Shown piece by piece: positions 48,531-53,302 of a DNA stretch of 64,000 nt; positions within the stretch are counted from its first letter, which is position 1, and every line of letters begins with the position of its first letter. Below the pieces are notes generated by a model. That model searched no databases. It was not told where the DNA came from and saw nothing but the letters and a program-made list of their open reading frames with translations. This stretch comes from Lactococcus garvieae (lineage in GTDB: Bacteria; Bacillota; Bacilli; Lactobacillales; Streptococcaceae), in the NCBI RefSeq assembly GCF_016027715.1, contig NZ_CP065691.1:248001-312000 (forward strand), given 5' to 3'. Both the position numbers and the translations under genes were made by a program.

Positions 48531-50041
48531 ATGGATTTTATAAGACGGGCTTGGCTTTTTACGAAAGCCAAAATATCAAGAACGATTCTACTTACTGTTG
48601 CTTTTTCAGCAATACTCGTTTTTGTCCTTTCGGGATTGGTTATTAATACAGCAGCCAATCGCTCAATTGAAAACGCCAAAAAAAGCGCAGGCGCAACAGT
48701 AACTTTATCGGTAAACCGACAAGCAATAATGGAAAAAGCTAGAAGTGCTAGTCAAAGTTCGAGTTCAGGCAACAACAGTAGAACGCCGATTGAAATGCCT
48801 GATATTACTAAAGCAGATGCGGACAAAATAGCAAAGCTTTCTGGAGTAAAATCTTATTCTTACACCAAACAAGCTACTGCTGATGCAAGTAAGGGTATAG
48901 AAGCCGTAAGTACTACGGATTCTACATCTGACGCCAGCAGCGATCAGCCTAGTGGATTTGGTGGAGGACCAGCAATGCCTGACTCTGCTAATCAAGAATC
49001 TGGTGATTTCCAAATCATTGGTACAAATGATTTAGGGGCTTCTTCAGATTTTTCTGGAGGAACAATACAATCACAACAGGCCGAGCCATTAATGCCTCAG
49101 ATGAAGGAACAAACAACGTTGTAATTGAAGAAAGTTTAGCTGATCAAAATAAACTAAAGGTAAATTCAACCTTTACACTTAAAGATAGTAATGATAAAAC
49201 CTATAAGATGACCATTGTGGGTATTTATAAATCTGGCTCAACAGGAAGTGACTTGTCTTCCAACTTTAGTTTTATGGAGCCAGCAAACCAACTTTATACA
49301 GCACTTAGCGTCCCTAATGCTATTCAAGAAACCACCAATACTATCAGTAGTGCAGTTTTTAACCTAGAGAATCCAGAAGCTACCAGTGATTTTGTTACAA
49401 AAGCCAACAAACTCATAGATACAGATCAATTTGAAGTTCAATCAAATGATGCTATTTATAAGCAAATGCTCCAACCCTTGAATAACATCAGTAGTTTTGC
49501 GAAGAATATTGTTATCCTCGTTGCTATAGCTGGAGCCCTTATACTTGCGCTTATCGTTATGCTTATGGTACGTGAACGAAGATTTGAAATCGGGGTACTT
49601 ATGAGCTTGGGTGAGACAAAAGGTAAAATACTTGCTCAATTCTTTACGGAACTCTTTATGATAATGATTGTTTCGATTGGTATTGCTTCGGCTGCAGGGA
49701 ATTTTGTGGGAAATGCAGTTGGGCAACAGCTCCTTAAGCAAGAAACGCAAACGAGTCAAACCAATGATAAAGAACAGAAAGCTGGGCCAGAAGGACAAGG
49801 TAGCCCTACTGAAGCAGGAAACGGAGCACCAGGAAATGGGGGCGAAAATGCGATACGTTCTACTTTAGGCATAGGGCAAAGTGCAAGCCAAAAAGAAGCT
49901 GTAAATAAGCTTGAAGTCAAAACATCAGCCCAACAAATTGCTACACTAGCGGCTATTGCACTTTTAATTACTTTGGTCGCAGTAGGACTCGCTGCTATCG
50001 GTATTTTACGATTGAATCCTAAACAGGTACTGACCAATTAA
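48531..50041 (+). pseudogene. ABC transporter permease (FtsX/MacB type), frameshifted
   Basis: The first part (48531-49124, 197 aa) has TM1 and a Ser/Gln-rich extracellular stretch; the second (49208-50041) carries the remaining extracellular region, three TM helices and the FtsX-like RERRFEIGVLMSLGETKGKILAQFF block. The frames join if one copy of a tandem ACAAT (49062-49066, 49067-49071) is removed: the coding then reads GGTITTGRAINASDEGTNNV and continues through 49208. The intact gene would have about 501 codons. Paired with the ATPase at 50058. Confidence 0.88.
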
Positions 50042-50729: not shown

Positions 50730-50757
50730 AAAGGAGCGAGAGCTCCTTTCATTTTAT
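50730..50757 (+). terminator. Terminator after the ABC operon
   Basis: AAAGGAGC / GCTCCTTT with loop GAGA, followed by a broken T run (CATTTTAT). Confidence 0.6.
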
Positions 50758-50815
50758 CAGTACGTTCAAAGCGGGAAGAAATCTGGTTGCCAAATAGGAT
50801 AAATTTTACAGCCTT

Positions 50816-50833
50816 TGGTATAATAGAGGTATG
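50816..50833 (+). promoter_or_regulatory. relP promoter with overlapping ATG-TGA/GTG
   Basis: Extended -10 TGGTATAAT (50816-50824). Six nt later comes ATG 50831 followed at once by TGA; the relP GTG (50833) overlaps both. Confidence 0.65.
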
Positions 50834-51516
50834 TGAAAAGACTTTCAAGAATGGAATTTGATATGAATAAAAAAATAATAACCACCCGCTTTGAAGTTGA
50901 GGAATTTGAAAAACTTAAGCGTAATTTGGTCAAATATGAATGTGCTTTAGCCGTAATCATGACTGAATTATCTAACCTCAATGCTTACTATAATGCTTAT
51001 GAGCCCGTTAACCCCATTGAGCATATTAAAAAGAGAATCAAATCCCCAGAAAGTATCGCAGGCAAATTAAAGAAAAAAGATTTACCTATAACGGCGGAAG
51101 CAGCTGCTCATTATTTATCCGATATAGCAGGTGTTAGAATCATTTGTGCCTATGCCAAAAATATTTATGAAATTGTAGAGATCATTAAAAACCAAGAAGC
51201 TTTTAATGTTGTGAGTGAAAAAGATTATTTGAATCATCCAAAACCTAGTGGTTATCGCTCATACCACATGATTTTAGAAGTGGATCTTGGCCCACTTTTT
51301 AACAATGAGTGCTGTCGGGTGGAAATACAACTTCGTACTTCGGCAATGGACTTTTGGGCTACTTTAGAGCACAAGGTACGTTACAAATATGGTGGAGAAA
51401 TGCCGGATCATCTCAGTAATGAACTTCAAGTCTGTGCGGAACAAATTCATGCTTTGGATAATCGGATGTATCTTATTCATGAGCTGGTAGACATGATTAA
51501 TGAGGAGGAAATCTAA
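50833..51516 (+). CDS. relP: Small alarmone synthetase RelP
   Basis: Makes (p)ppGpp from GTP/GDP and ATP; no hydrolase domain. 227 aa from GTG 50833, or 217 aa from ATG 50863. Synthetase motifs: NPIEHIKKRIKSPESIAGKL, DIAGVRIICAY, HPKPSGYRSYHMILEV and RVEIQLRTSAMDFWATLEHKVRYKYGG. Genomic linkage to a response regulator and kinase matches the relPRS operon of Streptococcus mutans, which favours RelP over RelQ. Ends 1 nt into the next ATG. Confidence 0.9.
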   Translation: MKRLSRMEFDMNKKIITTRFEVEEFEKLKRNLVKYECALAVIMTELSNLNAYYNAYEPVNPIEHIKKRIKSPESIAGKLKKKDLPITAEAAAHYLSDIAGVRIICAYAKNIYEIVEIIKNQEAFNVVSEKDYLNHPKPSGYRSYHMILEVDLGPLFNNECCRVEIQLRTSAMDFWATLEHKVRYKYGGEMPDHLSNELQVCAEQIHALDNRMYLIHELVDMINEEEI

Positions 51517-51911
51517 TGGCTAAAACAATATATATTGCGGATGACGATGACAACATACGCTTGGCAATCAAAGCTTTTTTGGAAAAAGAAGAATTTGTAG
51601 TAGAAGATTTTTCTACAGGAGATGAATTACTGGAACGCTTTAATGAACAAGCTAGTGATTTTGTTATACTTGATGTGATGATGCCCGGTTCCAATGGCTT
51701 TACAATTTTGAAAGCTCTCCGTGCTCAAAGTATTGTTCCAATTATTATGCTGACTGCACGTGATAGTGACCTTGATTACGCCACTGGCTTGGATTTGGGG
51801 AGTGATGATTACTTTACTAAACCCTTTAGTCCGATGGAACTAGTAATGCGTGTAAAAGCAATTTTCCGTCGCATTGAGTTTGAAAAGCAAAAAAATGAAG
51901 AAGTAGAGTAG
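51516..51911 (+). CDS. relR: Response regulator, receiver domain only
   Basis: 131 aa. Receiver with acidic pocket DDDD (9-12), phosphorylated Asp D53 (ILDVMMPG), T80 and K102 (FTKPF). After about residue 120 only a short charged tail remains; the winged-helix DNA-binding domain of OmpR-type regulators is absent, and the kinase starts 8 nt after the stop, so no room exists for it. Either output is by protein contact, or the domain was lost. Named by operon position. Confidence 0.85.
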   Translation: MAKTIYIADDDDNIRLAIKAFLEKEEFVVEDFSTGDELLERFNEQASDFVILDVMMPGSNGFTILKALRAQSIVPIIMLTARDSDLDYATGLDLGSDDYFTKPFSPMELVMRVKAIFRRIEFEKQKNEEVE

Positions 51912-51919
51912 GAGACAAT

Positions 51920-53302
51920 ATGATAAGAAGACCACCGAGTATTAAAACACGCTTGCTTCTTACAAATATTGGATTTGTTTTTTTTGCCTTTCTTTGGATT
52001 ATATTGATTTTTAATCTTTTGATTAATAGTTATATTAGTAATTCTGCTGCAAAGCAGCTGTCCCAAGTGAGAGTTTATCAGACCGAAGCTACGGCTCCTT
52101 CAGGTAGCATATCGGCGGATTTAGATGATGCGCCACGAGGTAGCTTAAACACTCATCCGATGGCTTTCGACATTAATGAGGACTATGAAGTTCAGAATTT
52201 AGCAGAAGTAGGTAACTTTGAAAAAGAAACAGCAAATAATATTGCTCAAGCTCTAAAAAATCAAAAAGTATCTCTGAGTAAAATTAAAAATTATCGACTG
52301 GATACTTCAGGAAGTACTTTTTATATTGAAACAATTCAGCAAGGTGCAGGGCAGTATCAAATTTTATATGTTGATATAACAGGAATCATTAATTTCACAA
52401 ATTCGGTTAATTTATTCTTGGTTTCCGTGGCGCTAGCTGTAGTTGTGATTCTTGGTTTAGCAGTGACTTTTGTGACACAAAGACTAATTAAACCATTATC
52501 TATCTTGGCACAATTTGCGACACGTATCGGGCAAGGGGACTTTACTCAATATGAAGGGACATTCCAAGATCGTGAGTTGGCTATTTTGGCTCATAATATG
52601 AATGTAGCCGCACGGCAGCTAGATAATAATGATAAAAACCAAAAAATGTTCTTCCAAAATGCCTCTCACGAACTTCGTACTCCTTTAATGGCCATTAAAA
52701 GTTATGCAGAAGGTATTTCCTATGAGGTAATGGAGCCGAAAAAAGCCAGTGAAACCATTCTTTATGAAACAGATCGGATGAGTGAACTCGTGGAAGACCT
52801 GCTTACCCTCTCTCGTCTGGATAGTCTTAGCGCACATCAAGAGATGTTGAGCCAAGATGTGCGCGTGATTATGCGCGATATTGCTAAAGAACAAGAAATC
52901 TTTGCTCAGCAAAGAGGAATAAAAATAAGAACCAACTTTGACAAAAAAGCAGTGATGCTGACATGCGATTATAAAGCTTTGCGTCGAGCCATCAGTAATC
53001 TTGTATCAAACGCTATGCGCTATGTAGAGTCGGAAATTGTCTTGACCTGTCTCAATAAGGGACAAGAAATTACTATTTCTGTGGCAAATGACGGTACAAT
53101 AATAGACCCAGAAACACTGCCTCATATTTTTGAAAGATTTTATAAGGGTTCAGGCGGCGTTCATGGTATTGGCTTAGCTATTGTAAAGACAATCGTTGAG
53201 CAGCACCAAGGAAAAATTTTTGTTGAGAGTGAAGCGAACCAAACGGTATTTACAATGGTTTTTACCAAAACTTCAAGAAAAACGCTTGAAAAGAAACAAT
53301 AA
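51920..53302 (+). CDS. relS: Sensor histidine kinase of the relP operon
   Basis: 460 aa. Two TM helices (about 11-35 and 163-185) enclose an extracellular sensor of about 125 aa; HAMP about 186-240; phospho-His H250 in NASHELRTPLMAIKSY; N box RRAISNLVSNAMRY, G boxes VANDGTI and GVHGIGLAIVKTIV. SD GGAGA. Its promoter region is not separate; translated with relP and relR. rplS promoter lies across its stop. Confidence 0.9.
   Translation: MIRRPPSIKTRLLLTNIGFVFFAFLWIILIFNLLINSYISNSAAKQLSQVRVYQTEATAPSGSISADLDDAPRGSLNTHPMAFDINEDYEVQNLAEVGNFEKETANNIAQALKNQKVSLSKIKNYRLDTSGSTFYIETIQQGAGQYQILYVDITGIINFTNSVNLFLVSVALAVVVILGLAVTFVTQRLIKPLSILAQFATRIGQGDFTQYEGTFQDRELAILAHNMNVAARQLDNNDKNQKMFFQNASHELRTPLMAIKSYAEGISYEVMEPKKASETILYETDRMSELVEDLLTLSRLDSLSAHQEMLSQDVRVIMRDIAKEQEIFAQQRGIKIRTNFDKKAVMLTCDYKALRRAISNLVSNAMRYVESEIVLTCLNKGQEITISVANDGTIIDPETLPHIFERFYKGSGGVHGIGLAIVKTIVEQHQGKIFVESEANQTVFTMVFTKTSRKTLEKKQ

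Follow-up and report, generated by a model that had tools for sequence, protein, structure and literature searches.

The relPRS operon of this Lactococcus genome pairs a small alarmone synthetase and a membrane histidine kinase with a response regulator, RelR, that consists of a receiver without an output domain. The loss of the output domain is real, old, and conserved, being neither an error of the strain nor a recent event. We tentatively propose, with a probability of about 0.42, that RelR relays the signal of RelS through contact with another protein, most likely RelP, and not by gene activation. A further proposition, plausible but held more loosely, is that two-component control of RelP is direct, with RelR as a detachable regulatory subunit whose output domain was lost after linkage to relP. 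The features of the locus in the window (the whole stretch of 64,000 nucleotides that was analyzed) are as follows.

50730..50749, + strand: terminator-like hairpin (terminator scan), between the upstream ABC transporter genes and relPRS
50815..50823, + strand: extended -10 element TGGTATAAT, the likely relPRS promoter, from reading of the sequence
50863..51516, + strand: relP, small alarmone synthetase of the RelP/YwaC (SasA) type, 217 amino acids (aa); PF04607 at 113 bits
51516..51911, + strand: relR, single-domain receiver of the OmpR lineage, 131 aa, with D53, T80, and K102; PF00072 only
51920..53302, + strand: relS, membrane histidine kinase, 460 aa

The order synthetase, response regulator, and histidine kinase is that of the relPRS operon of the Streptococcus mutans type. 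The stop codon of relP and the start codon of relR overlap by 1 nucleotide (nt) (TAATG), and 8 nt lie between the relR stop codon and relS, a spacing given correctly in the preliminary description; the relP start proposed there, a GTG at 50833, gives way to the ATG at 50863, which fits the relatives of relP. A consensus promoter scan around the operon returned matches near chance level, and TGGTATAAT, which has no good -35 element at the correct spacing, was missing from its output. An Rfam search near the operon yielded zero RNA elements at Rfam thresholds. The gene downstream is rplS, the window covers 248001-312000 of contig 2 in a genome of 2.11 Mb, and the closest named relatives at the locus are Lactococcus formosensis, L. 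petauri, L. ileimucosae, and L. garvieae. The ABC transporter permease 5' of relP (48531-50041) is read in two frames of 197 and 277 aa, through either a frameshift or a sequencing error; it is a single gene of 507 aa in L. taiwanensis and is also in two pieces in L. fujiensis.

RelR is a complete receiver and nothing more. Pfam places PF00072 at residues 5 to 113 (95 bits) and finds no PF00486, the C-terminal winged helix (Trans_reg_C) that OmpR/PhoB regulators carry. The phosphoacceptor-site residues D53, T80, and K102, noted from the outset, are invariant across 12 sequences of relatives, as is the acidic pocket D9/D10, and these features make RelR a single-domain response regulator. The protein does end shortly past the receiver, as first described, but its tail measures 12 residues (after residue ∼119) and not about 10. 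This short tail varies among relatives. The best matches of RelR in PDB, NCBIfam, and fold searches are OmpR/PhoB-family receivers, which places it in the OmpR lineage, and the AlphaFold2 model (pLDDT 89) is that of a complete receiver in which alpha5 runs as one unbroken helix up to residue 130. RelR alone among the nine response regulators of the genome has no output domain.

Places where an output domain might hide were also considered. None of the three frames 3' of relR resembles a winged helix, intact or frameshifted, in agreement with the initial reading of the locus, and a hidden domain was likewise absent from the 211-nt gap between relR and relS in one relative (L063). A separate DNA-binding protein as the other half of a split regulator was rejected: each of the seven Trans_reg_C domains encoded in the genome belongs to a full-length OmpR-type regulator, and no orphan OmpR-type DNA-binding domain was found in it. 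The genome encodes no Hpt protein either, and a phosphorelay via Hpt was rejected.

The two partners of RelR appear intact. RelP is a lone SYNTH (RelA_SpoT) domain, matching PF04607 only, with neither hydrolase nor C-terminal regulatory domains, and it is one of three RSH enzymes in the genome, alongside a long Rel and another small synthetase (RelQ). Its best PDB match is Bacillus subtilis YwaC (6fgk; E value, 1.4e-48), followed by Staphylococcus aureus RelP (6ewz), ahead of the RelQ entries. The conserved G-loop tyrosine is retained, and RelP is predicted to synthesize (p)ppGpp without stimulation by pppGpp (PMC5794853). RelS has a transmembrane helix, an extracytoplasmic alpha/beta domain (residues ∼40 to 155), a second transmembrane helix, a HAMP-like region, HisKA, and HATPase_c, the topology being taken from a low-confidence AF2 model. 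HisKA carries H250 and an ExxT motif, and H250, E251, and T254 are invariant among 14 relatives. As RelS and RelR both retain all residues for phosphotransfer and dephosphorylation, the kinase-receiver pair should work, and transfer of phosphate from RelS to RelR is soundly predicted from the intact catalytic residues. The only hint of an envelope signal is the build of RelS, which sits in the membrane and has an extracytoplasmic domain.

The single-domain form is widespread among close relatives and under selection. The preliminary description had held that a winged helix at this locus in close relatives would speak against its interpretation; none has one, and those with relR at this locus share the single-domain form, as does each Lactococcus genome in which relRS was found. 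In the garvieae group, RelR is 131 aa long in five further genomes (93 to 95% identity), and two deeper lineages, L. termiticola and a Lactococcus-like metagenome-assembled genome (MAG), carry it at 81 to 84% identity. Another Streptococcaceae genus, represented by one genome (G019), has a single-domain RelR with an aminotransferase gene between relP and relR. RelP of that genome (L139, 5444-7042) has an extra tail of ∼310 residues, rich in Pro, Glu, Thr, and Ala and with no Pfam match. Weissella muntiaci and W. oryzae have relPRS with single-domain RelR in a different chromosomal place, and their relP/relR overlap, like that of L. termiticola, is 8 nt. In three termite-gut Clostridia MAGs (L074, L075, and L080), the order is relR-relS-relP and RelR is still single domain. 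Wider samples of 400 Bacilli genomes (E value, 1e-48) and 399 Bacillota genomes contained no further single-domain RelR.

RelR dN/dS was 0.013 to 0.029 among garvieae-group pairs and 0.073 against the MAG, rough values in that many dS estimates are saturated, and RelR is under strong purifying selection. Between the genome studied here and L. garvieae, dN was 0.039 for RelR, 0.047 for RelP, and 0.105 for RelS, so that amino acid change in RelR is about that of RelP and one-third to one-half of that of RelS. Chance is excluded by the recurrence of the RelR length in relRS-bearing Lactococcus together with the dN/dS range of 0.013 to 0.073. Nine other lactococci, including L. cremoris and genomes of the L. 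taiwanensis and L. fujiensis types, have relP without relRS, and in L. taiwanensis and L. fujiensis this relP likewise sits between ABC genes and rplS. One complete Lactococcus genome (G024) has no relP, and a RelQ-like match alone remains.

Given this record, it is very improbable that RelR is what is left of a full-length regulator in decay, retained merely for the downstream relS: winged-helix relatives do exist and species of the L. lactis type have dispensed with relRS altogether, but RelR is under strong purifying selection, its active site is invariant over Lactobacillales and Clostridia, and its C termini are clean, of similar lengths, and free of leftover winged-helix sequence.

The origin of RelR can be traced in the receiver tree, where its group also holds ordinary full-length regulators that occur in Enterococcaceae-like genomes, in Clostridia, and in some streptococci (support, 98/90). 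Members of this group, recognizable by the motif DSDxDYATG (e.g., L143 to L156 from Enterococcaceae-like genomes and L198 to L200 from Clostridia), have receivers at most 68% identical to RelR and partner kinases that resemble RelS in build; unlike RelR, they retain the winged helix and have no relP alongside. The regulators linked to relP (13 single domain and 2 full length) form one group (88/82), within which the single-domain RelRs alone are weakly supported (82/0), so that one or several domain losses would fit the tree. The two full-length members come from termite-gut Propionibacteriaceae MAGs (L072 and L073; contig G+C content, 60%) with the order relP-relR-relS and a RelR of 250 aa with Trans_reg_C; a full-length RelR beside relP is a possible intermediate in domain loss. 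These two apart, the nearest kin of RelR are winged-helix regulators unlinked to relP. In searches starting from RelR, 9/9 single-domain members lay in relP operons (counting G019, with its intervening gene), whereas relP was within ∼1.5 kb of 0/42 full-length relatives, a count over lineages that are not phylogenetically independent and that shows association, not cause. An ordinary two-component system would on this evidence have been recruited to relP, with its DNA-binding domain lost afterwards. Other, unrelated two-component systems adjoin small alarmone synthetase genes in Clostridia (L103, L118, L138, and L074); the one in L074 (6901-7578) is a second, full-length system on the opposite strand directly after relP. 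Small alarmone synthetases thus seem to have become paired with kinases on several occasions.

Streptococcal relPRS, best known from S. mutans, shares with the present operon the three functions, their order, and co-transcription (PMC4963387, PMC7545056), and it has been described simply as a synthetase plus a two-component system (PMC4963387, PMC7545056). RelR lengths, whose comparison across relPRS operons had been recommended, are 224 to 240 aa in 30/30 streptococcal operons examined, compared to 131 aa here. The form of S. mutans RelR had been left open; judged from these streptococcal operons, the S. mutans type is full length and of another lineage. Streptococcal RelR has a winged helix, belongs to a different receiver lineage, falls outside the receiver-tree group of the RelR described here, and is 34 to 40% identical to it, and the two do not qualify as orthologues. 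The two pairings of relP with a two-component system look independent. Two-component systems also govern small alarmone synthetases in S. aureus (VraRS) and B. subtilis (WalKR), where they act on relP/relQ (PMC10117726); such control is known only at the level of transcription, with DNA-binding regulators encoded elsewhere, whereas RelR is encoded in the operon and has no DNA-binding domain.

The single-domain form of RelR is itself not new, since such regulators are common, making up about a quarter of all response regulators (PMC8995066). CheY, Spo0F, DivK, VemR, McvR, and MrrA are receiver only, like RelR, and act by contact or phosphotransfer (PMC8995066, PMC9923393, PMC5964349), but the papers cited pair none of them with a (p)ppGpp synthetase, while RelR is derived from the OmpR lineage and sits in a relP operon. 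In the open-licence literature, we found no description of an output-less RelR or of a receiver that targets a small alarmone synthetase. Nor does the searchable literature appear to describe the pairing with a synthetase, the conservation, or the derivation of RelR by domain loss.

A receiver that lacks an output domain has two ways to act, contact or the onward transfer of phosphate, and action by contact is established for single-domain regulators such as CheY and VemR (PMC8995066, PMC9923393). RelP is favored as the target by linkage in two gene orders, coupled translation, and domain loss only beside relP. We envisage the following. (i) RelS would sense something outside the membrane and phosphorylate, or dephosphorylate, RelR at D53. 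(ii) RelR would be made in step with RelP through overlapping translation; the relP/relR overlap favors such matched production. (iii) RelR would bind RelP, most likely via its alpha4-beta5-alpha5 face, and thereby alter (p)ppGpp synthesis. (iv) The likelier sign would be that RelR restrains RelP and that phosphorylation lifts the restraint, since RelP enzymes are active on their own; they need no pppGpp activator, and activation by pppGpp of the RelQ type is absent (PMC5794853).

Several observations count against RelP as the target. First, no RelP residue follows the presence of RelR: 8 sites fixed in relR-bearing lactic acid bacteria are changed in one relR-less clade, and none is changed in both relR-less Lactococcus clades. 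Second, many lactococci keep relP without relRS, and RelP does not need RelR. Third, the face of RelR proposed for contact, invariant at 43/45 positions in 11 sequences, is equally conserved in full-length relatives (98% invariant, versus 93% in enterococcal-type kin) and is not diagnostic, while the tail is variable. In addition, no receiver-synthetase fusion that would support contact was seen, and co-transcription with relP would equally suit a RelRS with another target. The G-loop region HPKPSGYRS (RelP position 126) reads NVKKTGYRS in several relR-less lactococci (L. lactis clade); its proline is also missing from some relR-bearing lactococci, and there is no clear link to relR.

Among other explanations, the one that fares best, though we consider it unlikely, is that RelR stays within the kinase circuit, serving RelS or a different kinase/regulator pair as a phosphate sink, a shuttle, or a feedback element, with relP merely co-expressed. 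Spo0F and DivK are single-domain regulators of that kind (PMC8995066), Foldseek matches of the RelR model include Spo0F (6ifh), although OmpR-family receivers score higher, and the catalytic residues of RelR and RelS are all kept, including the ExxT motif that serves phosphatase action. The genome has no Hpt protein, however, and a general sink needs no linkage to relP, yet every single-domain form found to date stands in an operon linked to relP.

We regard as rather improbable a role in which RelR pairs through alpha4-beta5-alpha5 with a full-length OmpR-type regulator, so that the output is transcription, perhaps of relP itself. The near invariance of that face would suit such pairing, and RelR keeps most of the dimer-face residues of PhoB, except at the R91 position, where it has a tyrosine. 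There are seven full-length OmpR-type regulators in the genome for RelR to pair with, and VemR works by binding the full-length regulator HrpG (PMC9923393). Nevertheless, the genome has none of the closest full-length kin of RelR, its own other regulators match at ≤41%, and domain loss solely beside relP would be left unexplained. Contact with another protein, be it RelQ, the long Rel enzyme, or a cell envelope protein, is improbable: the genome carries two more RSH enzymes and it is common for single-domain regulators to have several partners (PMC9923393, PMC8995066), but linkage is conserved in two gene orders with relP and not with other genes.

RelP enzymes are known to be controlled mainly by expression, via DNA-binding regulators such as VraR and WalR (PMC10117726). 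In the operon described here, the only possible regulator within a conserved unit has no DNA-binding domain, which makes a transcription-free route testable with three small proteins. The relatives form a domain-loss series, i.e., full-length regulators unlinked to relP, full-length regulators linked to relP, single-domain regulators linked to relP, and relP alone, and this series is a path by which a transcription factor may have turned into something else. If direct control of RelP by RelR is true, a signal from outside the cell would feed directly into the stringent response, with alarmone synthesis switched without a transcription step.
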